In this document: in pieces, positions 7,271 to 53,126 of the stretch
Layout of the letters: the number at the start of each line of letters is the position of its first letter
Numbering within the stretch: the stretch's first letter is position 1
IMG/VR virus record: IMGVR_UViG_3300046542_000116
Location: 1 to 53,126 of that record
DNA length: 53,126 nucleotides
Origin: a virus
Reading direction: 5' to 3' (one strand)
The notes under the pieces: model-generated
Databases searched by the model: none
What the model was told of the DNA's origin: nothing
What the model saw: only the letters and a program-made list of their open reading frames with translations
Made by a program: the position numbers and the translations under genes

Positions 7271-7648
7271 TTACAGCGGGTCAGAGAATTCAGGGTTCTT
7301 GCCCAGCTCTTTGAAGAGGGTCAGCAGCGCATCAAGTCCGCCTTCGGCAGCCGACAGGACGGCGGATCGGTGATCGCCGCGCAGGACATAAACCTCTTCC
7401 TCGTCAATATCGAAAAGCGATGTCTCTGGCTCGTTGGAGTCAGTTGGCCGCTCAAGATACTTTGCGACCCAGCCAACGCCGCAGATGGTCGGCAGCATCT
7501 TGGCGCCGGTTGGGTGCCATTCGAGATTCACCTGACAGCAGCGAGCCAGCTCCTCATAAAGCTCTCGCTGAGCCGGAGACATGGCGACCAGTGAATTCAT
7601 CTCATCAAAGAGAGCTATGGCTGTCGACGTCGAAATATTGAGCTTCAT
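7271..7648 (-). CDS. Hypothetical protein, 125 aa
   Basis: An acidic, soluble-looking protein with no recognised motif. Its ATG (7648) overlaps the stop of the upstream HTH gene by four bases, so it is likely co-translated with it. No signal peptide or membrane segment was seen. Confidence 0.7.
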   Translation of the reverse strand: MKLNISTSTAIALFDEMNSLVAMSPAQRELYEELARCCQVNLEWHPTGAKMLPTICGVGWVAKYLERPTDSNEPETSLFDIDEEEVYVLRGDHRSAVLSAAEGGLDALLTLFKELGKNPEFSDPL

Positions 7649-7872
7649 GGTTGTTGCTCCTCATGGTCTGCCGCCAGCGCCTCAAGTGCGAACTGCACGG
7701 TGTACGGTGCCTTGCGGTAAGTTTCGTGGTCGGTGGCCGCCAGGTAGTAGCGCAGCGCCCGGTCACTCATGCCGAGGGCGGCGGCTGCCTTTCGCTGGCT
7801 GATGCCGGCCTTATCCAGCAACCCGCGCAAATACGCCGGGTCTGGGTTGTAGGTTGTTGCGTCTGGCTTCAT
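7645..7872 (-). CDS. Small helix-turn-helix protein (Cro/XRE-like)
   Basis: A 75-residue protein. The start at 7872 (MKPDATTYNPD) is preferred over the longer frame to 7920, which would read through a hairpin. Residues ~14-40 (LRGLLDKAGISQRKAAAALGMSDRALRYYL) form a classic HTH. It is similar in length and pattern to the plus-strand protein at 24865-25071, so the phage has two paralogous small HTH proteins. There is no oligomerisation or peptidase domain, so it does not look like a CI repressor. A role as a local regulator is inferred. Confidence 0.75.
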   Translation of the reverse strand: MKPDATTYNPDPAYLRGLLDKAGISQRKAAAALGMSDRALRYYLAATDHETYRKAPYTVQFALEALAADHEEQQP

Positions 7873-8160: not shown

Positions 8161-8179
8161 ATAGGAACTATGTTCCTAT
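8161..8179. promoter_or_regulatory. Perfect palindrome overlapping the int stop codon
   Basis: ATAGGAAC-TAT-GTTCCTAT is an 8-bp perfect inverted repeat with a 3-base centre. It overlaps the integrase stop codon (8176-8178) and lies just upstream of the small gene ending at 7930. It is unrelated in sequence to the 18-bp operator family. Possible roles are an operator for a local regulator or a binding site in the recombination region. Confidence 0.6.
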
Positions 8180-9348
8180 CTTGCAAGAGTCTGAGCAGGA
8201 TATTTTTCAGCGCTGCCAAACATCGCCGCCGCCTTATCCCCCGACGAGTCGCCATCGGTTGGAATCCAGCGCCCGTATACCCGCGCAATCATGAGCCAAG
8301 ATGCGTGCCCCATCTGCTTGGCCACCCACATAGGATGCTCGCCCGCGCTCAGCATCATCGAGGCGTAGGTGTGCCGGGTCTGGTACGGGTTCCGGTAGCG
8401 CACGCCTGCCCGGCGAATGGTCGGCGTCCAGAGTGATTTGCGCAGCTCCTGGTCGCCGTTGAATGCCCGGTTGTGCCTCGGGTCGTGGAAAACGGCCTTC
8501 CCTTCTATATAGGTGTGCTCGCGCTGGGCCTTCAGTGCCTCGAATGACATGGGAAGCAGGCGCACGCTACGCACCCCGGCCGCCGTCTTCGGCGTCTCTG
8601 CCTCGCTGGCCGCCGCCGTCAGCCCCCGCGACACCCTCACTTCCCCGCGATGCCAGTCAATGTCGCCCCACTCCAGCGCGACCAGCTCCGACGTGCGCAG
8701 GCCGGTCCAGAAGGCGAACTGCAACAGGTTCCGATACTGCCCGGTCGCTGCCGCCAGAATGGCCCGCTGCTCGTCCGGGCTGAATGGGTCGATCTCGTCC
8801 TCGGTGCGCGGCTTGCCCTTCACTGAATACGTCCAGCCGGCCAGCGGGTTCGATTCGATCAGCTCGTCGTCCACGGCATCGCTCAGGGCCGAGCGCAGGC
8901 AGCTTTGCACGTTGGCCAGCCTTTTGTTGGTCGCCGACATCTTGGCCATGGCCGCCTTGACCTCTTTGCGCGTGACCGATGCCAGCGCCAGGCTGCCCAG
9001 CGCCGGGGCCAGCACCCCCGCAACGATCTTGCGGTAACCGTCCAGTGTTGACGCCTTCAGGATGCCGGCCTTGCGCTCAAGCCATTCGTCCAGGTACTGA
9101 CCCAGCGGAACCTGCCCGGACTGGCCGACAGCCGACGCCGCCCGCTTCGACCGGGGAAACGCCTCGGCATAGTCAAACTCGCCCCGGTGAATCGCCAGAT
9201 CAATCGACGCCTTCTGCTGCTGCGCCCGCTTCAGGTTGGCCGGCGTAGGCTCCAGCGGCAGGCGCTCCCGGCACTGCTTGCCCTCGACCATAAAGCTGAT
9301 CTCGATACTGCTTTTCGATGCCGCACGCACCCCGCGCTTCGCAGCCAT
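8176..9348 (-). CDS. int: Tyrosine recombinase / phage integrase
   Basis: A 390-residue site-specific recombinase. Residues 1-60 resemble the arm-binding N-terminal domain of DUF3596-type integrases. Residues ~80-165 form the SAM-like core-binding domain and ~188-365 the catalytic domain. Catalytic residues visible are Arg218 (FWTGLRTSELVAL), Lys254, Arg325 with Tyr322 in the usual His place (PYQTRHTYAS), His348 (MGHASW) and nucleophile Tyr358 (VYGRW). It should integrate the phage by recombining attP and attB. No tRNA-derived attP core was recognised beside it. It lies well inside the leftward operon. Confidence 0.95.
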   Translation of the reverse strand: MAAKRGVRAASKSSIEISFMVEGKQCRERLPLEPTPANLKRAQQQKASIDLAIHRGEFDYAEAFPRSKRAASAVGQSGQVPLGQYLDEWLERKAGILKASTLDGYRKIVAGVLAPALGSLALASVTRKEVKAAMAKMSATNKRLANVQSCLRSALSDAVDDELIESNPLAGWTYSVKGKPRTEDEIDPFSPDEQRAILAAATGQYRNLLQFAFWTGLRTSELVALEWGDIDWHRGEVRVSRGLTAAASEAETPKTAAGVRSVRLLPMSFEALKAQREHTYIEGKAVFHDPRHNRAFNGDQELRKSLWTPTIRRAGVRYRNPYQTRHTYASMMLSAGEHPMWVAKQMGHASWLMIARVYGRWIPTDGDSSGDKAAAMFGSAEKYPAQTLAR

Positions 9349-11735: not shown

Positions 11736-12227
11736 TCATTCGGACTGGCTCGGGCCGGGGAAGGTGATTCGGTAGGTGTTCACCAGCCGGTCCATCTTGT
11801 GCCAGCCGATGCCGACCTGCTTCTGCGCCTGCTTCTTGCTCAGGCCAATCTGTGCCAGAGCCTTGATCCGCTCGACCAGGACCTTGTCCTCGATCGGGTT
11901 TGCCTGCCTGCTGCCCGGGTGATGCCCGGCACCATTGCGCAGCTGAATTCCTGATTGCTTGCATATCTTCGTTATCCGGTCCTGAGAAATGCCCATGTGC
12001 TTGGCCATTTCCGTTTTGGTCATCGTTTCGCTCAGCGTTCGGATTTGATCGGCCAGCTGTCGTAGCTCGATCTCTTCCTGCGTCAGCTGAGGCTCGATGC
12101 GCGGGGGGAGCGGTTTGAATTCGAAGGTTTGCAGCACGTCTATTTTGCCGCCCGATCGCAGGAACGCTTCTTGCGCCGCGGCCAGGTTCGATCGCTCAAT
12201 CACTCGGAGGTCGTTGTATTGGTTCAT
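11736..12227 (-). CDS. DNA-binding protein with two predicted HTH motifs, 163 aa
   Basis: Two helix-turn-helix-like segments are visible: MTKTEMAKHMGISQDRITKICKQ around residues 69-91, and LSKKQAQKQVGIGWHKMDRLVN around residues 128-149. It is an early gene just after a leftward terminator. Because no CI-type repressor is present in the phage, this tandem-HTH protein is one candidate regulator, but it has no visible dimerisation or autocleavage domain. The assignment is inferred from motifs only. Confidence 0.7.
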   Translation of the reverse strand: MNQYNDLRVIERSNLAAAQEAFLRSGGKIDVLQTFEFKPLPPRIEPQLTQEEIELRQLADQIRTLSETMTKTEMAKHMGISQDRITKICKQSGIQLRNGAGHHPGSRQANPIEDKVLVERIKALAQIGLSKKQAQKQVGIGWHKMDRLVNTYRITFPGPSQSE

Positions 12228-15363: not shown

Positions 15364-15381
15364 GGTCCTTTGGAAGGGACC
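15364..15381. promoter_or_regulatory. 18-bp operator copy B, upstream of bet
   Basis: GGTCCTT-TGGA-AGGGACC, a near-perfect inverted repeat. On the minus strand it is preceded directly by TACTATAT, a -10-like element, so bound protein would cover the start of a transcript for bet-exo-ssb. The string TACTATAKGGTCCCT is shared with copy I in front of the gene at 49673. Confidence 0.75.
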
Positions 15382-16592: not shown

Positions 16593-16787
16593 TTAAAGGC
16601 GGCTGTGATGGCGGATGGTGCGAGCCTGGCCGCTGCCTGGAATCCGCTGGCGCGCCTGGCGTGCAACTCGCTCGCTCGGGTAGGTGGCAGACCCGCCCAT
16701 CTTCCCGGTGACGAACAGCCCGCGAAGGCTGATCACGTTCATTTCAAAGTCCTCGCCCTGTAGGGCCATCCCTGTTTCATTGTTCAT
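16593..16787 (-). CDS. Hypothetical protein, 64 aa
   Basis: The start is set at the ATG at 16787 (MNNETGMALQGEDFEMNV), with a GGGG-rich ribosome site upstream. The C-terminus is very basic (RVARQARQRIPGSGQARTIRHH), suggesting nucleic-acid binding. Function unknown. Confidence 0.6.
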   Translation of the reverse strand: MNNETGMALQGEDFEMNVISLRGLFVTGKMGGSATYPSERVARQARQRIPGSGQARTIRHHSRL

Positions 16788-16887
16788 GTGCTTGCACCCC
16801 TGCTTGCGTTGGTAGTTAGTTTCCCGCTGCCGACTCATCGAATCGGCACTGGTGAATCCGGTCAGTAGTCAACTACAAGTTGACTAC

Positions 16888-17109
16888 TCATCCCGTTGAT
16901 TTCATTAGCTCAAGCACCGTAATTGCTGAGTTATAGCCTCGAGCCCACTCAGCAGGCTTGCCTCGCATTTCATCTTTCAGCCTAATGATTGCCTCATCGA
17001 TCACCAGGCTTCTTTCAGCTTCGTATTTTTTACGCCAGTTGATCGGCGCCTTTGTCGGCGTCGCGTGTCGCTTCTTGAAGCCCGCCATGAATTCTTCAGC
17101 TGTAGCCAT
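16888..17109 (-). CDS. First gene of the leftward operon, unknown, 73 aa
   Basis: Starts at the ATG at 17109 (MATAEEFMAGFKKRHATP) behind a good GAGGGGCGAAA site. It is a basic, helical small protein. It occupies the place where lambda-like phages put cI or N, but resembles neither: it has no HTH and no S24 peptidase. An arginine-rich N-like antiterminator role cannot be excluded but is not supported. A ~200-base structured leader precedes it. Confidence 0.68.
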   Translation of the reverse strand: MATAEEFMAGFKKRHATPTKAPINWRKKYEAERSLVIDEAIIRLKDEMRGKPAEWARGYNSAITVLELMKSTG

Positions 17110-17155
17110 TTTCGCCCCTCGAACGGTCAAGTTTTACTTGTCAGTTGATTTCCCA

Positions 17156-17270
17156 ATGCCACCTCATCGAAGTGGCATCAGTGAAATTCTCTCCGGCAAA
17201 CCTTGCGCGCCGATCTCTCGGTCACGGAAGCATGCCGTGTTGCGTACTGTTCCCAGGAACTCGTCCTGGG
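17156..17270 (-). promoter_or_regulatory. Structured leader of the leftward operon (three hairpins)
   Basis: Reading leftward from operator C, three hairpins are visible before the first ATG: CCCAGGA/TCCTGGG (17252-17258 with 17264-17270), CACGG/CCGTG (17223-17227 with 17235-17239) and ATGCCAC/GTGGCAT (17156-17162 with 17172-17178). None has a T-tract. The 382-bp gap 17110-17491 has no convincing gene. The leader could hold nut- or put-like antitermination elements, since no N protein is recognised. Confidence 0.5.
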
Positions 17271-17305
17271 TCTGTCTTCAGCCATGTTAAAGAGCGGTCG
17301 ACTCA

Positions 17306-17323
17306 AGTCTCTTGCAAGGGACT
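17306..17323. promoter_or_regulatory. 18-bp operator copy C, leftward control region
   Basis: AGTCTCT-TGCA-AGGGACT, an inverted repeat with one mismatch. It stands between the structured leftward leader and the cro promoter, where lambda-like phages place OL/OR. The centre forms TTGCAA, similar to a -35 element on either strand. It is the strongest candidate for control of the leftward operon. Confidence 0.75.
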
Positions 17324-17340
17324 GAATCGATGGATTGAAA

Positions 17341-17461
17341 GGTAACTCAAGGTTGCGGACCTGTAAAGTCCTCGCTGTGAAATAATTTTTAATTTGCCGG
17401 GGACTTTAAAGGGACTAGACTTGTCGTAATACCGTTGAAGACTCCGCAACCGTTAGTTACC
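17341..17461. repeat. 19-bp inverted repeat bracketing the cro operator region
   Basis: The left arm 17341-17359 (GGTAACTCAAGGTTGCGGA) matches the reverse complement of the right arm 17443-17461 at 17 of 19 positions. The 83 bp between contain an AT-rich stretch and two GGGACT half-sites 11 bp apart. The right arm covers the spacer of the predicted cro promoter. A binding pair for looping, a cruciform or a recombination site are all possible. Confidence 0.75.
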
Positions 17462-17463
17462 AT
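17400..17463 (+). promoter_or_regulatory. Predicted cro promoter with tandem GGGACT half-sites
   Basis: The -35-like TTGAAG (17435-17440) and -10-like TACCAT (17458-17463) are 17 bp apart. Transcription would start about 20 bases before the cro ATG. Upstream, GGGACT occurs at 17400-17405 and 17411-17416, one helical turn apart, as a degenerate copy (D) of the 18-bp operator. Confidence 0.55.
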
Positions 17464-17491
17464 AGCGTATCAGCCGGCGGGGGAGTAATTC

Positions 17492-17695
17492 ATGCAAGGT
17501 GTTCCGCTAAAGCAGTTGGTCGCAGATCTTGGCCCGGTGAAAGTCGGAAAGATGCTCGGAGTGAGCCACCAGGGAATAACGAAGGCGGTAGAGGCTGGGC
17601 GAGAAATCTTCGTCACCGTGCTACCGGACGGGAAGGCAGAGGGTAAGGAGCTGAGCGACTTCCCGATCGTAAAGAAGAAAGCAGCACCAGACTGA
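17492..17695 (+). CDS. cro: Cro-family repressor
   Basis: A 67-residue homologue of lambda Cro, recognisable along the full length: LKQLVADLGPVKVGKMLGVSHQGITKAVEAGR matches the lambda Cro helix 1, HTH and recognition helix layout, followed by beta strands (IFVTVLPDGKAEGKEL) and a basic tail (KKKAAPD). The ATG at 17492 has a GGGGGAG ribosome site. Cro normally dimerises on operators to shut down early transcription. Here it is the only clear lambda-type repressor in the genome, because the usual divergent cI gene is missing. The 18-bp palindromes are its most likely targets, by inference. Confidence 0.9.
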   Translation: MQGVPLKQLVADLGPVKVGKMLGVSHQGITKAVEAGREIFVTVLPDGKAEGKELSDFPIVKKKAAPD

Positions 17696-17719: not shown

Positions 17720-17923
17720 ATGGCATACGTACCAGATGAACTGATGCACGAAAAACAGATAAAAGTCCGACTCGTTGACAAAGAGTATGACGAGTGGAAA
17801 GAAATGGCTCACAAGGAAGGACAGCTGCACAGCGTTATGGCTAGAATTGCCATGCGGGCCATTCTCGAAGAGTACCGCAGGACCGGCGAGCTACCTGAGT
17901 TCATCGCCAAGCAGCGCGCATAA
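17720..17923 (+). CDS. Small ribbon-helix-helix-like protein, 67 aa
   Basis: The segment KQIKVRLVDKEYDEWKEMAHKEGQLHSVMARIAMRAILEEY has the strand-helix-helix rhythm of Arc/CopG or MobC-like proteins. It lies 24 bp after cro in the same transcript, where lambda places cII. It shows no CII similarity. It may be a DNA-binding partner in the lysis-lysogeny decision, but this is inference. Confidence 0.6.
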   Translation: MAYVPDELMHEKQIKVRLVDKEYDEWKEMAHKEGQLHSVMARIAMRAILEEYRRTGELPEFIAKQRA

Positions 17924-18996: not shown

Positions 18997-19016
18997 ACCG
19001 AAATAAGCTAATCGTG

Positions 19017-19045
19017 TTGACGACTAGCCTATGCTGGTTTAGTGT
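19017..19045 (+). promoter_or_regulatory. Predicted promoter of the KorA/TrfB-like gene
   Basis: TTGACG (19017-19022) and TAGTGT (19040-19045) are 17 bp apart, 26 bp before the ATG at 19071. AGCTAA upstream and TTTAG on the -10 resemble halves of the KorA operator (GTTTAGCTAAAC), which would allow autoregulation. Confidence 0.5.
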
Positions 19046-19070: not shown

Positions 19071-19283
19071 ATGGTCACCATGTCAAACGAACAATTCGAC
19101 ACGCTTGCGGTGCTGATCAACGCATCAGGCGGCGTGAGCGACCAAGGCGCGAAAATAGTCCTGGTTGATGGCAAGCCAGTCAAAGAGGCCGCCGAAGAGC
19201 TTGGATGCACGATCCAGACGATTTACAAGTCTGTGAAGCGCTTCAAGTCCGCCTTGGAATTGGCCAAGGCTGTCGCTCGGTAA
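19071..19283 (+). CDS. KorA/TrfB-like transcriptional repressor, 70 aa
   Basis: The whole protein matches the DNA-binding domain pattern of KorA (TrfB) of broad-host-range plasmids: an N-terminal helix (SNEQFDTLAVLINASGGVSD), KIVLVDGKPVKEAAEELGCTIQTIYKSVKRF as HTH, and a C-terminal helix. KorA represses plasmid replication, partition and transfer promoters. Here it lacks the C-terminal dimerisation strands of RK2 KorA. The start at 19071 follows GAGAGGGG. Its place before the replication genes and near parFG-like genes suggests control of replication or maintenance, by inference. Confidence 0.75.
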   Translation: MVTMSNEQFDTLAVLINASGGVSDQGAKIVLVDGKPVKEAAEELGCTIQTIYKSVKRFKSALELAKAVAR

Positions 19284-19321: not shown

Positions 19322-19339
19322 AGTCTCTAACGAGGGACC
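19322..19339. promoter_or_regulatory. 18-bp operator copy E, before the replication genes
   Basis: AGTCTCT-AACG-AGGGACC. It lies between the KorA-like gene and the replication initiator, about 12 bp after a TATACC sequence. Binding here could block entry into the replication genes. Confidence 0.7.
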
Positions 19340-19348
19340 GGAGCACAC

Positions 19349-19379
19349 AAAAAAATGCCCCGGCGGGCTAGGTCGGGGC
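19349..19379 (-). terminator. Leftward-facing terminator before the replication gene
   Basis: GCCCCG/CGGGGC (19357-19362 with 19374-19379) form a stem. Seven A precede it on the plus strand, so a T-tract follows it on the minus strand. It would stop antisense transcription from the replication region, not the forward operon. No leftward gene uses it, so it may end an antisense RNA. Confidence 0.55.
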
Positions 19380-19487
19380 TGGATGTTTCTTTATACGCGA
19401 GGGAAGTATGACATACGCAATTGAGTGCGCAAGTGGCTGCGTGATTTATCGGCCGCTGAATTTTGTCGGATTTGTTCGGGGGGAATC

Positions 19488-23137: not shown

Positions 23138-23180
23138 GGCGTGACCCCCTTTCTGTTTGTGAGTATGGTGAACCCAGTAA

Positions 23181-23399
23181 TCACCGTGAGTATTTGGCGA
23201 TGTACTGGTCGATAAAGTCCTGAATCACCGTCGTCATGTCCGACTCGTTGCGCATGCAGGCCCGGCGGAATTTTTCGTGCTTGGTTGCATCGAGGCGCAC
23301 GTTCAGGCGCTTTTCATCGGTATTCACTTTGGTGGCCTGGGCCATAAGCTTCGGCGCGCGGGTGGCCACGTCGCTGCGTGCGGTGGTGAGAAGTGTCAT
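23181..23399 (-). CDS. ParG-like ribbon-helix-helix partition protein, 72 aa
   Basis: A 72-residue protein with a disordered, basic N-terminus (~1-30) and a C-terminal RHH: KRLNVRLDATKHEKFRRACMRNESDMTTVIQDFIDQYIAKY. This layout and length match ParG of plasmid TP228 (76 aa), which binds ACTC-type boxes, represses its operon and stimulates the ParF ATPase through its flexible N-terminus. It starts one base after the ParA stop, the same order as parF-parG. Its stop lies inside a CACCGTGAGTATTTG box. Confidence in the partition role rests on the pair. Confidence 0.82.
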   Translation of the reverse strand: MTLLTTARSDVATRAPKLMAQATKVNTDEKRLNVRLDATKHEKFRRACMRNESDMTTVIQDFIDQYIAKYSR

Positions 23400-23400
23400 A

Positions 23401-24009
23401 TCAGGCCTCCAGTATTTTCTTCACTGCTTCTGCAAAGCGTAGCGATTCCAGTCTGATCTCGCTGTCGCCGCTTTCTGTCGGGGTTTTGCCTCGGGCAATG
23501 GCGGTCGGGTAGCCGATCCGGTCGCGCAGTGGCACCGGGACAACCGGCAGGCCGTATCCGTTCAGGGCCTCGGTGATCTCCCGGCCAAGGATCGTGTTCA
23601 CGTCCAGGCAGTTCACATACAGCGCGATCCGGAACTCTGGCCGGATCGCCTGGTGCGCCTTCATCAGCTCGATGGAGTCGGCAGCCGACCAGATGTCGAA
23701 CAGGCTTGGCGGGCATGGCAGCAGCGCCAGGTCGAGCGCCGGCAGTGCGTCGGCTGACAGCTCGCCCTTCGTGTCGATCACGCAGTAGTCGAAGCCTTCC
23801 AGCGCCTTCAGGTCCGACACCCGGTCGGCCGCGAATATCTCCAGCGACTTCGGTAGCTTGGCGACCTCGATCCAGCGCGCAATGCTCCCTTGTGGGTCCA
23901 GGTCTACCAGGGCGACCCGGTGCTTTCGTGCCAGCGCCCCGGCCAGCGTGACCGCGCTTGTCGACTTTCCCGCCCCGCCTTTCTGCGTCACAAAACCGAT
24001 CTTTTTCAT
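23401..24009 (-). CDS. parA: ParA-family (ParF-type) partition ATPase
   Basis: A 202-residue small ParA without an N-terminal HTH, like type Ib ParF (206 aa). Walker A is KGGAGKST (10-17), the A' region is VDLDPQGS (35-42), and YCVIDTKGELSADAL carries the Walker B-type Asp. The start at 24009 (MKKIGFVTQKGG) is chosen because the upstream extension to 24042 runs through operator-like boxes. It should move or anchor the replicated genome on the nucleoid with the RHH partner. Presence in an integrase-bearing phage is unusual. Confidence 0.88.
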   Translation of the reverse strand: MKKIGFVTQKGGAGKSTSAVTLAGALARKHRVALVDLDPQGSIARWIEVAKLPKSLEIFAADRVSDLKALEGFDYCVIDTKGELSADALPALDLALLPCPPSLFDIWSAADSIELMKAHQAIRPEFRIALYVNCLDVNTILGREITEALNGYGLPVVPVPLRDRIGYPTAIARGKTPTESGDSEIRLESLRFAEAVKKILEA

Positions 24010-24048
24010 GAGTACATGGCTCACAGTGAGTATTTGACTCACAGATTA
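24005..24048. promoter_or_regulatory. Candidate par operator/centromere boxes upstream of parA
   Basis: Directly upstream of the parA ATG are repeated GAGT/ACTC tetramers in mixed orientation: GAGTACAT, CTCACAGTGAGTATTTGACTCACAG. The sequence CAC(A/C)GTGAGTATTTG is shared with 23182-23196, and CACAGTGAGT with the inverted repeat at 22679. ParG of TP228 binds ACTC boxes spaced by AT-rich DNA, so autorepression and centromere function are likely. Confidence 0.65.
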
Positions 24049-24068: not shown

Positions 24069-24123
24069 TTTGCATATTCGCGAGCATCGCATATAGTCCC
24101 TACAGAGGGACCAGAAAGGGACC
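24069..24123 (+). promoter_or_regulatory. Promoter with 18-bp operator copy F
   Basis: TTTGCA (24069-24074) and TATAGT (24092-24097) are 17 bp apart. The operator AGTCCCT-ACAG-AGGGACC (24095-24112) begins on the -10 and covers the expected start site. An extra half-site AAAGGGACC follows at 24115-24123. This is the clearest example of the operator lying on a promoter, here for the 24143-32048 operon. Confidence 0.75.
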
Positions 24124-24142: not shown

Positions 24143-24868
24143 ATGGCAAAAATTCTGATTGGGTACTCGGCATGCGAGCTGACCCGGAAAGCCTTTGAAC
24201 AACATGGGCACGACGTCTGGACCTGCGACAAGCTTCCTGCTCGCGGCGAGCAGAGCAAGCACTTGCAGTGCGACATCTGGGTAGCGCTGAAGCTTGGATG
24301 GGATTTCGCCGTGCTGCATCCGATGTGCACCTACCTGACAACGTCGGGCGCATGGGCCTTGATGGATGCAAACTTTGAAAAATACCCGGGCGTTGGCTAC
24401 CACCAAAAGCCGAACCCGGAAAAGCTCTATGGCGCCGAGCGCCGAGCCGCGCAAGCCATCGAGCTGGACAACTTCCGCATGCTGCTTGATCTGCCGTTTC
24501 CGGTCGCGATCGAGAACCCCGGGACGTCGGCCATCAATACCGCAATTCGCGGACCTGATCAGGTCGTTCACCCGTACCACTTCGGTGACGACGCGAGCAA
24601 GGGGACGGGCTTCTGGCTGACCAAGGGCACGCCGAAACTGGTGATCGATCCTGCCGCCTATGTCCAGCCGCGCTGGTGCCTACAGCCGAGCGGTAAGACC
24701 CTGCCGCGCTGGTCCAACCAGACCGACGCCGGCCAAAACAAATTGCCACCGCGCCCTGACCGCTGGCTGGAGCGCTCCGAGACCTACCCGGGCATCGCTG
24801 CCGCCATGGGCGACCAGTGGGGGCGGTTCATCGCCGAACTCATGAAAGCACAAGAGAAAGCCGCATGA
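24143..24868 (+). CDS. DNA cytosine-methyltransferase-like protein (degenerate)
   Basis: A 241-residue protein. The start at 24143 (MAKILIGYSACELTRKAF) is set by alignment of the family N-terminus. The pattern is a Rossmann-type SAM-binding fold: an N-terminal strand and helix, HGHDVWTCDKLPARG, then DFAVLHPMCTYLTTSG where C5 methyltransferases have PPC and the catalytic Cys. It has MCT instead of PPC, and the length is short for a full methyltransferase. Phages carry many such proteins, and activity has not been shown for them to my knowledge. It starts the operon after operator F and overlaps the HTH gene by four bases. Confidence 0.7.
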   Translation: MAKILIGYSACELTRKAFEQHGHDVWTCDKLPARGEQSKHLQCDIWVALKLGWDFAVLHPMCTYLTTSGAWALMDANFEKYPGVGYHQKPNPEKLYGAERRAAQAIELDNFRMLLDLPFPVAIENPGTSAINTAIRGPDQVVHPYHFGDDASKGTGFWLTKGTPKLVIDPAAYVQPRWCLQPSGKTLPRWSNQTDAGQNKLPPRPDRWLERSETYPGIAAAMGDQWGRFIAELMKAQEKAA

Positions 24869-25071
24869 AGCTGGAACCAAGCAAGTTAAGCAGTGACCCG
24901 GCACACATCAGGAAGCTGATCGCATCGACCGGGATGACGCAGAAGGAAGCAGCCGCGGCACTGGGCGTCGGTCACCGAACGATCGGCGACTGGCTCGGCG
25001 GCAAGATCAAATGGTCCTACCCGGCGCAGTACGCGCTGGAGTGTCTTGTTCAATACGGGGTGGTGAAATGA
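24865..25071 (+). CDS. Small HTH protein (Cro/XRE-like), 68 aa
   Basis: Starts at 24865 (MKLEPSKLSSDPAHIRKL). The HTH spans ~15-45: LIASTGMTQKEAAAALGVGHRTIGDWL. It is similar in length and pattern to the leftward protein at 7645-7872, and both are followed by QYALE/QFALE near the end, so they are paralogues. It overlaps both neighbours by four bases. The likely role is a small regulator or structural DNA-binder. Confidence 0.75.
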   Translation: MKLEPSKLSSDPAHIRKLIASTGMTQKEAAAALGVGHRTIGDWLGGKIKWSYPAQYALECLVQYGVVK

Positions 25072-29231: not shown

Positions 29232-29262
29232 GGTCCCTGCAGAGGGACTGTATCGGATATGA
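29232..29262 (+). promoter_or_regulatory. 18-bp operator copy G upstream of the dNMP kinase
   Basis: GGTCCCT-GCAG-AGGGACT (29232-29249), a perfect inverted repeat apart from the central GCAG (itself near-palindromic) and the outermost base pair. TATGAT, a -10-like element, follows at 29257-29262. It lies in the only sizeable gap of the 24143-32048 operon. Confidence 0.75.
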
Positions 29263-31704: not shown

Positions 31705-32048
31705 TTTACGAAGGGGTGACGACTGACCGGGAGGCAGAAGACTTGCTGACCCACTGGGGACGCTGGACTGTTCAGGGGGCGGGGGTTCCAGGCTGCTTCG
31801 CTCCAGGAGAGGCGCCGGTGACGATCATTACCGACGACGAGGCGCTGCTGATTGACCGCTTGGTGGGTCGACTGAAGTTGCGGTACCCGGAGTGCGGCAG
31901 GGTGATCAAGCGCTACTACACCAGCGACCTGACAATCGCCCAGCTGGCCACCAAACTGGAAATGAGCAAGGAGTCGACGCGGCAGCTATGGAAGGCTGGC
32001 GTTGCCTGGGTAGATGGGGCTTTAGAATCTCGTCGCTCAGTCCCTTGA
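31701..32048 (+). CDS. Late antiterminator, Q-like
   Basis: A 115-residue protein. LTHWGRWTVQGAGVPG (~16-31), ISD-type TDDEALLIDRLVGRLKLRYPECGRVIKRYYTSDLTIAQLATKLEMSKESTRQLWKAGVAWVDG fit the phage antitermination Q / DUF1133 group, in which an HTH-like segment binds near the late promoter. Downstream are promoter, leader and terminator elements as expected for Q control. Its stop codon (32046-32048) is inside operator copy H, so this operator and the late promoter overlap the gene end. Confidence 0.82.
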   Translation: MIYEGVTTDREAEDLLTHWGRWTVQGAGVPGCFAPGEAPVTIITDDEALLIDRLVGRLKLRYPECGRVIKRYYTSDLTIAQLATKLEMSKESTRQLWKAGVAWVDGALESRRSVP

Positions 32049-32074
32049 CAGGGACCGGTCAGGAATTGTACATT
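32039..32074 (+). promoter_or_regulatory. Predicted late promoter with 18-bp operator copy H
   Basis: The operator AGTCCCT-TGAC-AGGGACC (32039-32056) contains a consensus -35 TTGACA (32045-32050) in its centre. An 18-bp spacer leads to TACATT (32069-32074). A protein on the operator would directly block this promoter. The likely role is the lambda pR'-equivalent start of the late transcript. Confidence 0.7.
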
Positions 32075-46496: not shown

Positions 46497-49400
46497 ATGG
46501 CCCAAACATCCCGCCTCGTCATTGAGCTGGACAGCCGAGACGCCGAAGCAAAGGCCGCGGACACTCGCAAGGCGCTGGAGGCGCTGGAGAGCGCAGGGCT
46601 GAGCATTCAGCCAGCTCTGAACAAAGCCAGCGCCGGCATGGAATCGATGGGCAAGAGCGCCGAAAAGGCCTCAAAGTCGGTATCAGCCGAGACCGATGAG
46701 CTTGAGCAGCTGCTCGGGCAAATCGACCCGGTCGTTCGCCGGCTCGGAGACCTGGACAAGCAAGAGCAGGCGCTTGCTCAGCACCGGAAGGCCGGCAAGC
46801 TCGATGTCGCCACCTACAACGAGTACCAGTCGAAGATCGCCGCAACCCGCGCCGAGCTCGGTCGCTTCAATGCTGATCTGGGCAAGACCGGGATATCTGC
46901 CAAGCAGACGGCGGCGGCCCTGCGAGGTGTGCCGGCGCAATTCACCGACATCGCGGTCTCGCTTCAGGGTGGCCAGAACCCGCTGACGGTATTCCTGCAG
47001 CAGGGCGGTCAACTCAAGGATATGTTTGGCGGCGCTGGGCCGGCGGCCAAGGCTCTTGGGAACTACGTTCTCGGCCTGGTCAACCCATTCACCGTTGCGG
47101 CCGCGGCTGTCGGTACGCTGGGGCTGGCTTATTACCAAGGGTCTCAAGAGGCGGACGCATTCCGTCAGGCTCTTGTAACCACCGGCAATGGCGCTGGGAC
47201 TACGGCGCTCGCTCTTTCCGGCATGGCTACCACCATCAGCGCGACAGTCGGGACCACCGGCAAGGCTGCTGAGACGCTGGCCTTGTTGGCATCGAACGGC
47301 AAGATTGCCAGTTCCAGCTTTGAGCAGATCGCCACGGCGGCCATTGGCTTCGAAGGCGCCACAGGCAAGGCGGTATCGGCAACCGTGGCCGAATTCGCTG
47401 CGCTGGCGGAAGACCCAGTCAAGACGCTGGCCACGCTAAACGACAAATACAACTTCCTGACCGCATCGGTTTACGAGCAGGTGCGCGCCGCTCAAGAAAT
47501 GGGCGAGAAGGAAGCGGCGGCGGCAATTGCCCAGGAGGCCTACGCGCAAGCGCTGGACGCTCGAACCAAGACCATTAAAGAGAGTCTTGGCACCATCGAA
47601 ACCGCCTGGAATGCGATCGCAGGTGCCGCGAAAAAAGGCTGGGATAACATGCTTGGCGTCGGTCGCGAGCAGTCGCTCGACGAGCAGATCGCCAACACCA
47701 GGCAGCTGCTGGAGGATCGCAAGACCAGCTTCGCGGCAAAAATGTTTCCCGATACGCTCGGCGAAGGCAGTGAGTCGACCAGGTTCCTGCAGACTCGATT
47801 GAATCTGCTGGAGAAACAGAAGCTGCTGCTGACCGACCAAGGAAAGGCCGAGGGCGAAAACGCCAGGATTCAGCGCGAAGGGCAAAAGGCCTATGAGGAC
47901 TTTCAGAAGTCCATAGAGGCGAATTTCACCAAGCGCCAGAAAATGAACAAGGCGCTTGAGGACGAGGAAAAGCGAATCGCCACGGCCCGCGCGGCTGGAT
48001 ACACCATCACCGCCGAGCAAGAGGCCGCATCGCTCAAGGCCATCCGAGAAAACGACAAGTACAAGGAGGCAAAAGGACCGAAAGCCAAGGCCTACAGCGA
48101 AGACGCCGGCATGAAAATGCTCGACACGTCGCGCCAGGCTTACGCCGTGCTCGTCCAGCAGAACGCAGCGATCAGCGACCAGGGCACCAAGAACGAAAAG
48201 CTCGGCGCCCAAGCTCAGGCCCTGATCAAGTGGGAGCAGCAGCTGGCCGACCTCAAGTCGAAAGGCACACTGACCACCGATCAAAAGGCGCTACTGGCCA
48301 GCCAGGACCTGATCACCGCCCAGCTCAAGAAGAACTCGGCGCTTGAGAAAGAAGTCGAGCTTCGCAAGGCATCCAAGGAGGAAGCCGAAAAGCTGTCCGC
48401 CTTCCAGGCCAACCAGAACAGCCGACTCAGCACCGCCAAGGAAGGGCTTGACTCGCAAGTTGCCGGTATGGGGCTTGGCAGTGAAGCGCGGGATCGGCTC
48501 AAGCAGGACCTGTCGATCCAGCGCGATTACGCCCGGCAGTCGGCCGACCTTCTGGAGCAGCGCAACACCGGGAAGATCACCAATGACCTGTACGACAAGG
48601 AAAGCGCGGTAATTCAGGACGGTCTGAACAAGCGCCTGGCCATGCAGCAGAACTATTACAGCCAGATCGACACCTACCAGTCCAACTGGCTGAATGGCGT
48701 GACCGAAGGCTGGAACAGCTACGCCGAGATCTCGCGAAACACGGCGCAGCAGACCCAGGACATCGTCACCGGATCGCTCGATACGATCACAACAGGCTTC
48801 GGCAACTCGTTCTCGGCCATGGCCTTGGACGGAAAGAGCGCTGGTGACGTGCTGATCGGGACGTTCGATAGCCTTGTCCGCGGCGTACTCGATGGCCTCG
48901 GCCAGATGGCGGCGCAGTGGTTGATCAACCAGGGCATTCAGCTCGCGTTCGGGCAGACCGAAACGGCGCTGCATGCGACCAAGCTGGCGATGATCGGCAC
49001 AGAGACCGCTGCAGAGACGGCTGGCGCGGCTACGGTTGCGGCGGCCAAGGTCACCGCGGACGGCGTGGCCACTGCGTCGTCTCTGACGGCTACAGCTACC
49101 ACCACAACTGCTCAGGTCGCGGCGGCGGGAACTACGCTCGCATCGTGGCTGCCGGCGGCATTGGTGGCGTCGATCGGTTCGTTCGGTGCAGCAGCGGTTG
49201 TCGGCGGCGGCGCTCTTCTCGCAGCCTTCGCCCTGATCAAAGGGTTCTCCAATGGCGGATACACCGGCGCCGGCGGCGTCAATGAGCCAGCTGGCACCGT
49301 CCACAAGGGCGAGGTCGTCTGGAGTCAGGCGGATATCCGCAAGGCCGGCGGCGTGGCCACGGTCGAGGCGATGCGCAAGGGCAATGTCTCGGCAGGGTTG

Positions 49401-49625
49401 CCGTCGTCTGCAGGCGGCTCAAAGTCGGCAAGCAATGGCGTTCCGACACAGGAGAGGGGCCTGGTCGTCAATCTGCATGAGGATGCCGCCCGAGCCGGCC
49501 AGGTAAACCGAAGCCAGCTCAGCGAGCAGGATGTCGTCGACATTTATGTCTCCAACATCAGATCCGAAGGCCAGATTCACGATGTCAACCAATCCAAGTA
49601 CGGTTTGAAGTCCCAAGGCGTATAG
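46497..49625 (+). CDS. Tape measure protein
   Basis: A 1042-residue protein. An N-terminal helical/coiled region is followed by the lambda H-like block GISAKQTAAALRGVPAQFTDIAVSLQGGQNPLTVFLQQGGQLKDMFGG (~152-199), with hydrophobic segments at ~200-225 and ~885-915 (likely membrane-active). By the usual rule of ~0.15 nm per residue the tail would be about 150 nm. It starts after a GGAGAAAAGGC ribosome site. Confidence 0.93.
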   Translation: MAQTSRLVIELDSRDAEAKAADTRKALEALESAGLSIQPALNKASAGMESMGKSAEKASKSVSAETDELEQLLGQIDPVVRRLGDLDKQEQALAQHRKAGKLDVATYNEYQSKIAATRAELGRFNADLGKTGISAKQTAAALRGVPAQFTDIAVSLQGGQNPLTVFLQQGGQLKDMFGGAGPAAKALGNYVLGLVNPFTVAAAAVGTLGLAYYQGSQEADAFRQALVTTGNGAGTTALALSGMATTISATVGTTGKAAETLALLASNGKIASSSFEQIATAAIGFEGATGKAVSATVAEFAALAEDPVKTLATLNDKYNFLTASVYEQVRAAQEMGEKEAAAAIAQEAYAQALDARTKTIKESLGTIETAWNAIAGAAKKGWDNMLGVGREQSLDEQIANTRQLLEDRKTSFAAKMFPDTLGEGSESTRFLQTRLNLLEKQKLLLTDQGKAEGENARIQREGQKAYEDFQKSIEANFTKRQKMNKALEDEEKRIATARAAGYTITAEQEAASLKAIRENDKYKEAKGPKAKAYSEDAGMKMLDTSRQAYAVLVQQNAAISDQGTKNEKLGAQAQALIKWEQQLADLKSKGTLTTDQKALLASQDLITAQLKKNSALEKEVELRKASKEEAEKLSAFQANQNSRLSTAKEGLDSQVAGMGLGSEARDRLKQDLSIQRDYARQSADLLEQRNTGKITNDLYDKESAVIQDGLNKRLAMQQNYYSQIDTYQSNWLNGVTEGWNSYAEISRNTAQQTQDIVTGSLDTITTGFGNSFSAMALDGKSAGDVLIGTFDSLVRGVLDGLGQMAAQWLINQGIQLAFGQTETALHATKLAMIGTETAAETAGAATVAAAKVTADGVATASSLTATATTTTAQVAAAGTTLASWLPAALVASIGSFGAAAVVGGGALLAAFALIKGFSNGGYTGAGGVNEPAGTVHKGEVVWSQADIRKAGGVATVEAMRKGNVSAGLPSSAGGSKSASNGVPTQERGLVVNLHEDAARAGQVNRSQLSEQDVVDIYVSNIRSEGQIHDVNQSKYGLKSQGV

Positions 49626-49630
49626 CGCGG

Positions 49631-49659
49631 TGATACTATAGGGTCCCTACCAAGAGACT
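49631..49659 (+). promoter_or_regulatory. Extended -10 promoter with 18-bp operator copy I
   Basis: TGATACTAT (an extended -10) is followed at once by GGTCCCT-ACCA-AGAGACT (49642-49659). It lies in the 47-bp gap between the tape measure and the DUF1833 gene, an odd place for a promoter within the late operon, and carries the same TACTATA-GGTCCCT layout as copy B. Confidence 0.65.
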
Positions 49660-50538: not shown

Positions 50539-53126
50539 ATTTTTCCCGAACAAATTGGCCGGCTGCCAGCCGCTGGCCACCTACACCACGCGCGAGCGCA
50601 TGACGATCGAGGCGTGGCTCAAGGGCATGACGGATCGTTACCGTCGCGCACCGGTGCAGCCGATCAGCGTAGAGCTCAACGACGAACTGATCTGCCCAAC
50701 GCTATGGCACAAGGTCAAGTTCAAACCGTCTGATCACGTCCGCATCTGGCGCGAGCCGAAAGGCTCAGATCCGTTCAGCATTACAGCGCTGCTGTTCACC
50801 GGCGTGAAGGCTATTGGCAATCTTCTGATGCCGAAAATGCCAGGGATGCCCTCAGCGGGCGGCACCGCCCAGGGCAATCCAATCGACGAGGCCAGCGCCA
50901 AGGGCAACAAGGTGAAGATCGGCGACCCGGTGCGCAACATCGCCGGCCATCAAAAAGTCTTCCCGTCCTACCTGGCCGAGCCGCGCACCTATTACGCATC
51001 GCCACGCGAAAAATGGGTGGAAATGCTGCTGTATATCTCCGCCGGCGCTCTGGATGCTCAGGTGAGCAAGGCGAAGGTAGGCGAAACGCCGATGGCCGCC
51101 CTTGGCGCCGATGCGGAGGTGGCGATTTATGCGCCCGGCGAAGACCTGTCCGCCGACACCGCCTCGATGCTGTGGTTTAACGTGGATGAGGTGGGGGCAA
51201 GCTCGAGCGGAACCTCTGGTCTTGAGCTTACCGTCTCGACCACGATCACCCCGTCAGCCATCGCCTCGGCCTATCAGTTCAACGGCGACAGCATTGCCAT
51301 CCCGTCCGGCGCCGGCAGTTTCCCATCGGACTGGGGCGTAGGCTTGGTGGTTAGGGTGCTCGCGCCATATGCCTACACCGTCATCGACGGCGGCGCCGGG
51401 CGCGATATCGTCCAGGGTCCGCTGGACATGCTAAACCCGACCGTCGGAATGCTCATCGAGGTAGCTGGAGACAATTCCGGCAATTACGTCGTTCACAGCT
51501 ACACCCCGTATGCCCCAGCCGTTCCGCCGACTGCCGGGACGCCGTCGACGATCCTCGGCTCGAGTGCTCCGGCTCGCTACGACTACAACGTGACGCCGCT
51601 GACCTTTACGGTTTCGCTCGGCGGCACGCCGTACTCGGTGGCGCTGAACACGGCGACTACTGACCTGAACGGGCTGGTATCTGCAATCAATACCGCCAAG
51701 GGTGGCGCGCCGTTCGTGGCCAGCGCCTCGTCCGGCAAAGTGTTGCTGACGCAAACCGGAACCAACAACGGGCTGGCCCTGGTCTCGTCCGGCGGATCTA
51801 CCGTGCTCGGCAGCAGCCCGACCAATACGACCGGTACGGCCGTATCTGCTGGCACGCCTGAGCAGCCTGCTCAGATGACCCTTGATTACGACGGGGGATC
51901 GCCCGTGGTCGGCTTGGCGCTGGGCTCTGGACTGGCTGCCATTGGCCCGCGCGGCCTGCGCTACCAGATCACCGGGTTCAGTTCGTCGATCATGACCGTT
52001 GACCGCCTGACATCTTCGGGCCTGATCGATAGCGGCTGGCCTGGATTCAACGCTATGGAAACCGTAAACGGCGTGATCAACCTTGACCCTTCGAGCCTGG
52101 AGGGTGGTTATCGCGGGCCTTTCATTTGCGGGCCAGGGTCTGAGCCGATCACGCACATTGAATACAGCGTGACCTTCTCGAATGGCTTGATCGGCATCGG
52201 TAGCGCCGGCTTTGAATACGCCGTCACCTCGTCGCACCAGTTCGAATACCGAGACGCCGACGTGGCGGGCGCATGGATCGTTGCGCCGCAAACCGTCAGC
52301 GGGCAGTCGCGCGATGCGCAGGGATTCACTTTCCGCCACGAACTGCCCTATCCAATGAACCGACCAGAGGCGCGCATCAAGCGCATGCCAAAGATCGGCG
52401 GGCAGAGCTCGGCAGAAGTGATCGATGTCGTGGCCTGGGACGGCCTGCGCGGCCTTCGCCAGCTTCGGCCGACTTCATACCCCGGCATGACTGTCATGAC
52501 AGTGAAGATTCGAGGCGGCGATCGGCTCTCGGCGCAGTCAGAAAGCCAAGTCAACCTGGAGGCAACGCGCATCCTGCCGGTTTACACCGGCGGCGCATGG
52601 ACGGCACCGCAGCCAACGCGCGGCATCGTTCCTTGGTGCCTGCATGTCCTGAAGTCGCTCGGATACACCGACGCCGACATCGACCTGCCCGAATGGGACC
52701 GACTGCACACGGTATTCGAGGCGGCCGGCCAGTATTACGACGAGGTCATCGACGACACCAGTACGGCCAAGGACCGGCTGAACAATGCCCTGGCTTGTGG
52801 ATTTGCTGAACTGGCCATCAAGAACGGCTTGGTCAGCTTGGTGCGTGACGAGCCGCGGGCAGCGTTTGACCGAGAATACGGACCGAAAACGCAGACCTAC
52901 TCGCCGCAGAACATGACCAAGGGGCTCAAGATCGACGGCCCTATGCCATCGGTCAATGACTTCGACGGGGTCGATATCGAGTATTACTCGAATCTGACTT
53001 GGGCATGGGAAACGGTGCCCTGCCGGTGGCCGGGCGATGAGGGGCTGAGAGTCGAGAATATCAAGCTGCCAGGTGTAGGGGATCGGGATCGCGCATATCA
53101 ATTCGGCATGCGCCGTCGCGGACACC
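50531..53126 (+). CDS. Tail tip / host-specificity protein (TipJ-like), N-terminal part
   Basis: Starts with GTG at 50531, overlapping the peptidase stop by 8 bp (protein starts MIEFFPNKLAGCQPLATYTT). It is open to the window end and continues at base 1; the joined gene is ~1021 residues. Features are an N-terminal hub region, a Gly/Thr-rich central part (~225-450) with many beta strands, and the conserved block with WDGLRGLRQLRPTSYPGMTVMTV. It should form the central tail spike that recognises the host. Confidence 0.87.
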   Translation, partial: MIEFFPNKLAGCQPLATYTTRERMTIEAWLKGMTDRYRRAPVQPISVELNDELICPTLWHKVKFKPSDHVRIWREPKGSDPFSITALLFTGVKAIGNLLMPKMPGMPSAGGTAQGNPIDEASAKGNKVKIGDPVRNIAGHQKVFPSYLAEPRTYYASPREKWVEMLLYISAGALDAQVSKAKVGETPMAALGADAEVAIYAPGEDLSADTASMLWFNVDEVGASSSGTSGLELTVSTTITPSAIASAYQFNGDSIAIPSGAGSFPSDWGVGLVVRVLAPYAYTVIDGGAGRDIVQGPLDMLNPTVGMLIEVAGDNSGNYVVHSYTPYAPAVPPTAGTPSTILGSSAPARYDYNVTPLTFTVSLGGTPYSVALNTATTDLNGLVSAINTAKGGAPFVASASSGKVLLTQTGTNNGLALVSSGGSTVLGSSPTNTTGTAVSAGTPEQPAQMTLDYDGGSPVVGLALGSGLAAIGPRGLRYQITGFSSSIMTVDRLTSSGLIDSGWPGFNAMETVNGVINLDPSSLEGGYRGPFICGPGSEPITHIEYSVTFSNGLIGIGSAGFEYAVTSSHQFEYRDADVAGAWIVAPQTVSGQSRDAQGFTFRHELPYPMNRPEARIKRMPKIGGQSSAEVIDVVAWDGLRGLRQLRPTSYPGMTVMTVKIRGGDRLSAQSESQVNLEATRILPVYTGGAWTAPQPTRGIVPWCLHVLKSLGYTDADIDLPEWDRLHTVFEAAGQYYDEVIDDTSTAKDRLNNALACGFAELAIKNGLVSLVRDEPRAAFDREYGPKTQTYSPQNMTKGLKIDGPMPSVNDFDGVDIEYYSNLTWAWETVPCRWPGDEGLRVENIKLPGVGDRDRAYQFGMRRRGH
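53000..53126. repeat. Terminal direct repeat, copy 2 (circular overlap)
   Basis: Identical to 1-127. It shows that the ends of the contig join within the tail-tip gene, which is complete only across this junction. Confidence 0.95.

Follow-up and report, generated by a model that had tools for sequence, protein, structure and literature searches.

A phage genome with a lambda-type Cro, no CI repressor and a dispersed palindrome that looks like the operator set of another repressor

The stretch of DNA analysed here (the window; IMG/VR record IMGVR_UViG_3300046542_000116, 53,126 nucleotides) is a complete siphophage genome of temperate type that encodes a lambda-type Cro and lacks a cI gene. As judged by comparison of related sequences, the absence of cI is a property of the whole clade, one of lambdoid phages that probably infect Pseudomonas, and not a private loss of this phage. 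A 16-bp palindrome, denoted S, recurs over the genome in the manner of scattered operators for a different repressor; the chances seem about even that a replacement repressor acting at the S sites maintains the prophage together with Cro and a KorA-like autoregulator. Cro and CI are a textbook pair; in this clade Cro is kept along with its operators, a partition locus and an integrase, and CI is absent. If the proposed reading is true, other repressors can take over at the core of the lambda switch.

The early control region of the window includes the following features (operators are unstranded):

17492-17695, plus strand: cro, lambda Cro family (PF09048, 1cop), type 1 recognition helix (SHQGITKAV)
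17339-17367, minus strand: PL, TTTACA-17-TACCTT, leftward, a consensus match only
17435-17463, plus strand: PR, TTGAAG-17-TACCAT, rightward, a consensus match only
17342-17356: predicted Cro operator O1, GTAACTCAAGGTTGC, overlapping the -10 element and the spacer of PL (motif, Cro-type match)
17446-17460: predicted Cro operator O2, GCAACCGTTAGTTAC, overlapping the -10 element and the spacer of PR, 104 bp from O1 (motif, Cro-type match)
17394-17421, plus strand: P2, a candidate promoter between PL and PR, TTGCCG-16-TAGACT preceded by an AT-rich element, in 30 of 30 sequences
17285-17296, minus strand: boxA, CGCTCTTTAACA, nutL-like, in the leftward leader, a perfect match
17252-17270, minus strand: boxB-like hairpin beside boxA, with a 7-bp stem in the predicted fold

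By its profile and sequence matches, the product of 17492-17695 is a true member of the lambda Cro family. It scores 47.8 bits against the Pfam Cro family PF09048 (E 1.4e-12), above the curated cut-off of 32.7, and matches the sequence of the lambda Cro structure 1cop (phmmer E 6.9e-9); tblastn to lambdoid phages gives about 40% identity to Cro of lambda, HK97 and Pseudomonas phages, and the dN/dS ratio of the gene is 0.113. The initial annotation had called this gene a Cro homologue, had noted an integrase, had seen neither a protein with HTH and S24 domains nor CII, and had proposed profile searches for CI, S24 and CII. These searches, run on the window, bear it out: there is no S24 peptidase, no match to Phage_CII and no match to Phage_CI_repr over the cut-off (the best-scoring protein being that of the small XRE gene 24865-25071), and no CI-like ORF was found. 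The position of CII is occupied by the ribbon-helix-helix (RHH) gene 17720-17923. The window contains nut-like elements, namely boxA, the sole match with two or fewer mismatches, and the boxB-like hairpin, and no N protein was recognised in it by general annotation. An Rfam search of the window gave no match.

Searches of IMG/VR with Cro yielded 20 records and then 9 more (Cro 51-97% identical). In all 30 records, two 15-bp palindromes are found 5' of cro, 103-104 bp apart. Their sequence is GYAAC-N5-GTTRC in the 20 type 1 records (helix SHQGITKAV) and GTACC-N5-GGTAC in the 10 type 2 records (helix SHPPLIRAA), such that the type of the operator coincides with the type of the Cro helix in 30 out of 30 cases, at two places per record and nowhere else in 740,829 bp. 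The operator of lambda has the same 5-N5-5 geometry. This match between operator sequence and Cro type makes it very probable that both PL and PR are repressed by Cro; as the two operator and helix types amount to one evolutionary switch, the co-variation, though strong, is unreplicated. These paired types represent a natural experiment on Cro specificity. The -35 element and spacing of PL are kept, with two -10 variants (TTTACA-17-TACCTT or TACAGT), in all 30 sequences, and PR, as TTGAAG/A-17-TACNAT, in 28 of them. The spacer of P2 is occupied by a degenerate S-like site (17400-17415), and a spacer site is found in relatives as well. An early guess at the Cro operator, GGACnnnnnnnGTCC, was abandoned after alignment.

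Throughout the clade of the window, PL and PR are located back to back, with one Cro operator each and cI missing. In none of the records obtained in the Cro searches does a CI-like ORF run divergently from cro; cargo genes fill a variable slot there. The S24 domain is absent from 30 of the 31 records searched, the exception being a CI-bearing cousin, G015 (L021), which was retrieved via the protein encoded at 16888-17109 and not via Cro. In G015, a 259-aa CI with HTH and S24 domains is encoded by the sole gene between PL/OL and OR/PR, and the order of cro, an Arc-like gene and the replication genes is that of the window. This record has operator-like repeats of its own (AACCATCGGT) that flank cI. 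The CI gene also adjoins cro in the isolated Pseudomonas phages MR13, MR15, Aurca01, Medea1 and PseuP_222. With lambda and these phages, the window shares a true Cro, a rightward early operon with O/P-like genes, a leftward recombination operon, an integrase and 5-N5-5 operators; unlike all of them, in which cI lies beside cro, it has no cI, and a single operator is located at each of its back-to-back promoters PL and PR. Among the hallmarks of the immunity region of lambda, the Cro operators of both promoters are recognisable from sequence and co-variation; CI and CII are not found.

The first and last 127 bases of the window are identical (1-127 = 53000-53126), forming a terminal direct repeat that is also present in G003, G005, G006 (131 bp), G007 and G015, with a length of 127-131 bp across G003, G005, G006 and G007. 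A tail gene is split by the window ends, and its halves join in frame, as they do in the relative G008. Taken together, the repeat and the in-frame junction indicate that the genome is circular and complete. We give almost no credence to an incomplete genome with cI in the missing part: the record is listed among virus records without stated end repeats, but the repeats are present in the window and the four relatives, and the place where cI is expected is read through in 30 of 30 records. Truncation as the cause of the missing cI is ruled out by the terminal repeat and the clade-wide absence.

In the window, the S palindrome (GTCYCT-N4-AGGGAC) has 8 occurrences with at most one mismatch, compared to 0.3 expected from shuffles, and the reversed control pattern has zero matches. 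S is distributed over most transcription units, in many cases overlapping promoter-like sequence. Seven of the eight (unstranded) sites lie in or across gene gaps:

362-377: S-like site in the coding sequence of a tail gene, which may be due to chance
15365-15380: S site in the gap preceding recT, a gene of the leftward operon; on the minus strand, a -10-like TATATG immediately precedes it
17307-17322: S site, GTCTCTTGCAAGGGAC, a short distance downstream of PL; most relatives holding the region have it near cro-185
19323-19338: S site between the korA-like gene and the replication genes (class of 10)
24096-24111: S site, a perfect palindrome over a -10 (TTGCAT-16-TATAGT), between parF and gene 24143 (promoter score 11.3)
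29233-29248: S site, perfect, intergenic (class of 8)
32040-32055: S site, perfect, holding the -35 of a promoter-like sequence and overlapping the end of the upstream gene (promoter score 13.3)
49643-49658: S site in the late operon, in the gap that follows the 1042-aa tail gene (46497-49625)

Several S sites are present in every complete relative; in particular, the par-proximal site is located at parF+87 to +98 in 15 of the 15 records that cover parF. By contrast with these, zero sites were found in G015, TC7, phiAH14a, PseuP_222, AH02 and the searched stretches of Cruim01 and MR15, and the partial stretches of Aurca01 and Medea1 contain one near-match each. The S sites outside ORFs have higher promoter scores than random ORF-free positions (p 1e-8, the sites not being independent); across records, they group into some 20 homologous classes, so that cross-record S statistics are likewise not independent. 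Many copies of S coincide with the -10 or follow it, a location that fits a repressor site. The site at 362-377 is a perfect palindrome at the same place in G007 and G008. The literature searched contained nothing relevant on the S motif or on temperate lambdoid phages lacking cI.

The S sites can also fold as hairpins, and a minor variant of S is present in both orientations. The variant that is kept in the PL leader yields a C-A mismatch in the leftward RNA; since this mismatch breaks the RNA stem, a DNA site is favoured over a hairpin, and the RNA hairpin reading is disfavoured. The site at 19323-19338 was also considered as preceding a rightward terminator, and this was rejected: the neighbouring hairpin (approximately 19345-19385), a conserved element separating korA from the replication genes, carries a T-run on the minus strand and hence appears to terminate leftward transcripts. 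It recalls the OOP terminator of lambda.

Three genes bear on the lifestyle of the phage:

8176-9291, minus strand: tyrosine integrase (PHROG 1, E 8e-60; dN/dS 0.167)
23181-23399, minus strand: parG (PF09274, E 5e-8; ParG 1p94, TP228-type, E 3e-5)
23401-24009, minus strand: parF, a ParA-type ATPase (PHROG 164, E 4e-35; dN/dS 0.164)

The integrase is 69% identical to that of Pseudomonas phage MR13. The parFG genes are present in the records that cover the region and absent from G015 and the MR15 stretch, both of which bear CI. The dN/dS ratios of the integrase, parF and cro and the presence of parFG favour a temperate phage, one that may employ plasmid-like maintenance, and the purifying selection on the integrase and ParF makes a decayed virulent phage less likely. 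Short exact peptide patterns, run twice against 84,980 species genomes of bacteria and archaea, detected no relatives of Cro, a plasmid collection contained no close Cro, and no lysogen or plasmid prophage of the clade was found in either source; lysogeny is thus something that we infer. The circular contigs fit virion DNA and plasmid DNA alike. GAGT/ACTC tetramers are repeated beside parF and parG (24009-24041 and 23160-23190) and could be ParG sites. In a ParF scan for further Cro types, many new contigs are, to judge by their lengths, too short beyond parF to include cro.

The genes that might encode the S-binding protein, and the KorA-like regulator, are the following:

17720-17923, plus strand: Arc-like RHH protein, the best candidate S binder (PHROG Arc-like repressor, E 4e-5)
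11736-12227, minus strand: tandem-HTH protein with two tri-helical domains in the model, the second candidate
24865-25071, plus strand: small XRE-type HTH protein, the third candidate (best HTH_3 match, in most genomes of the clade)
19071-19283, plus strand: KorA-like HTH autoregulator (HTH_23 above the cut-off, PF16509 below)
19008-19045, plus strand: promoter of 19071 with the dyad CTAATCGTGTTGACGACTAG

A protein that binds S should be clade-specific and have constant DNA contacts. The strand of 17720 keeps Q-x-K-x-R clade-wide, even in variants that are 43% identical, and the relative in G015, only 30% identical, has E-x-K-x-R; no homologues were detected among 50,697 phages. The model of this protein resembles the PutA RHH domain (probability 0.95), and the gene follows cro after a gap of 24 nt, where it has no promoter of its own. 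The link to S is circumstantial, and we propose only tentatively that 17720 binds these sites. For 11736, the same role appears doubtful: its homologues are found also in CI-bearing phages without S sites, and a Foldseek search with its low-confidence model gave no useful match. It is somewhat more doubtful for 24865: although this gene follows the strongest par-proximal S site, the recognition helix of its product is different in G009, and phage TC7 has a homologue and no S sites. The gene at 7645-7872, near the integrase, encodes a small XRE protein paralogous to that of 24865-25071 (both PHROG 3865). The product of 19071 reaches 19.4 bits against KorA/TrfB PF16509, under the cut-off of 26.7, and is hence called KorA-like only. 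Several subtypes exist in relatives, and the operator found at the promoter of the gene differs from one subtype to another; because this operator occurs once per genome, the protein looks like a local regulator, and it was rejected as the global repressor. The 19071 subtype and the Cro type combine differently across records. Three additional contigs that encode ParF, G034, G035 and G036, each contain several S sites; none of them matches the 17720 profile and only G035 matches the tandem-HTH profile, and these contigs are probably fragments, which would account for the missing matches.

In the reading that we prefer, Cro would act at both PL and PR, between which cI is missing, and a clade-specific DNA-binding protein at the S sites would shut off PL, the recT operon and the replication operon, as well as the par-proximal promoter and several late positions. 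This protein, most likely the RHH protein encoded directly after cro, with 11736 and 24865 as alternatives, would do the job of lambda CI and, with Cro and the KorA-like autoregulator, maintain the prophage; ParFG would stabilise it in an extrachromosomal, or sometimes unintegrated, state. The fuller scenario of a multi-repressor lineage in which CI was replaced by Cro at PL and PR, the KorA-like autoregulator at the promoter for replication and the small RHH protein at palindromic operators scattered across early as well as late transcription units, along with ParFG and the integrase, is on the whole unlikely. The S motif provides a direct and cheap test of which protein carries immunity.

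The initial annotation had allowed for immunity either depending on another regulator, among the small HTH, tandem-HTH, RHH or KorA-like proteins, or having been lost. The former option is the favoured one, given the selection on the integrase and ParF, the conserved parFG genes and the S sites, which make a replacement repressor likelier than loss of immunity; the latter draws on the lack of detected lysogens and on the isolated phage AH02, a Cro-bearing lambdoid annotated without CI and integrase. Loss would mean a virulent lineage devoid of cI and lysogeny, in which Cro alone tunes lytic early transcription, the integrase and ParFG serve another purpose and S represents unrelated dispersed repeats, such as also occur in T1-like lytic phages (PMC4319613). 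Clade members were indeed not seen in the bacterial species genomes scanned, but the S sites lie on promoter-like sequence, and a purely lytic phage needs neither the integrase nor parFG, so we regard this as an unlikely though serious contender. A state like that of lambda-dv appears quite improbable: here Cro would be the immunity repressor that shuts PL and PR, the O/P-like genes would sustain low-level replication, and ParFG would partition the circle (anti-immune maintenance). The Cro operators at PL and PR and nowhere else, the two Cro specificity types and the association of parFG with the absence of cI are all compatible with such a state, but it leaves the S sites unexplained and the integrase kept, and lambda-type Cro is generally a weak repressor. 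Similarly improbable is S as an activator or promoter element of staged lytic transcription, or an RNA hairpin, unrelated to immunity. Overlap with promoter-like sequence and the capacity to fold agree with it; the many sites in a repressor position relative to the -10 and the mismatch in the PL-leader RNA do not.

One repressor serving many dispersed operators is familiar from C1 of phage P1 and KorB of plasmid RK2. No homologue of C1 or KorB/ParB was recognised among the scanned proteins of the window. RK2, with its KorB-KorA silencing (PMC11790492), also encodes KorA, to which the KorA-like protein of the window offers a parallel. The stoperators of mycobacteriophage L5 (cluster A) are asymmetric 13-bp sites, present genome-wide in more than 20 copies (PMC9283540). 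As in L5, repressor-type sites of the window are found at promoters, in short gaps and also inside the late operon (PMC9283540), in multiple copies; unlike the asymmetric, transcription-oriented sites of L5, S is a 16-bp palindrome in about 8 copies, and the host group is different. Dispersed intergenic repeats are also known in the lytic phages T1 and Stevie (PMC4319613). Pseudomonas phage AH02 (MZ501271) resembles the window in its lambdoid layout, a Cro-type gene and no annotated CI, and differs in having neither an annotated integrase nor S sites. The partition genes ParF and ParG are a feature of phage-plasmids that is present in the window. The plasmid prophages phiHAP-1, VP882 and VHML, which are telomerase phages, likewise combine a ParA-type partition gene with a temperate lifestyle, but their ParA is just 34-37% identical and the window has a tyrosine integrase.

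The gene divergent from cro does not occupy the position of a repressor gene:

16888-17109, minus strand: cargo gene in the variable slot (no Pfam match; PHROG 5305), with a homologue beyond cI in the cousin G015

Its product has 73 aa (80 aa if started at an upstream TTG) and, in line with the earlier description, no HTH; PHROG 5305, a family of unknown function, is its sole good PHROG match. The homologue in CI-bearing G015 is 85% identical and lies beyond cI, which indicates that 16888-17109 is not the gene of the repressor position. As a cargo gene without an HTH that is present in one other record only, it was rejected as the repressor. The variable cargo slot (16857-17287) extends between the leftward leader and the gene at 16593-16787, and a 48-bp repeat, 73% identical (16809-16856 and 17138-17185), is found on both sides of the cargo in the window.
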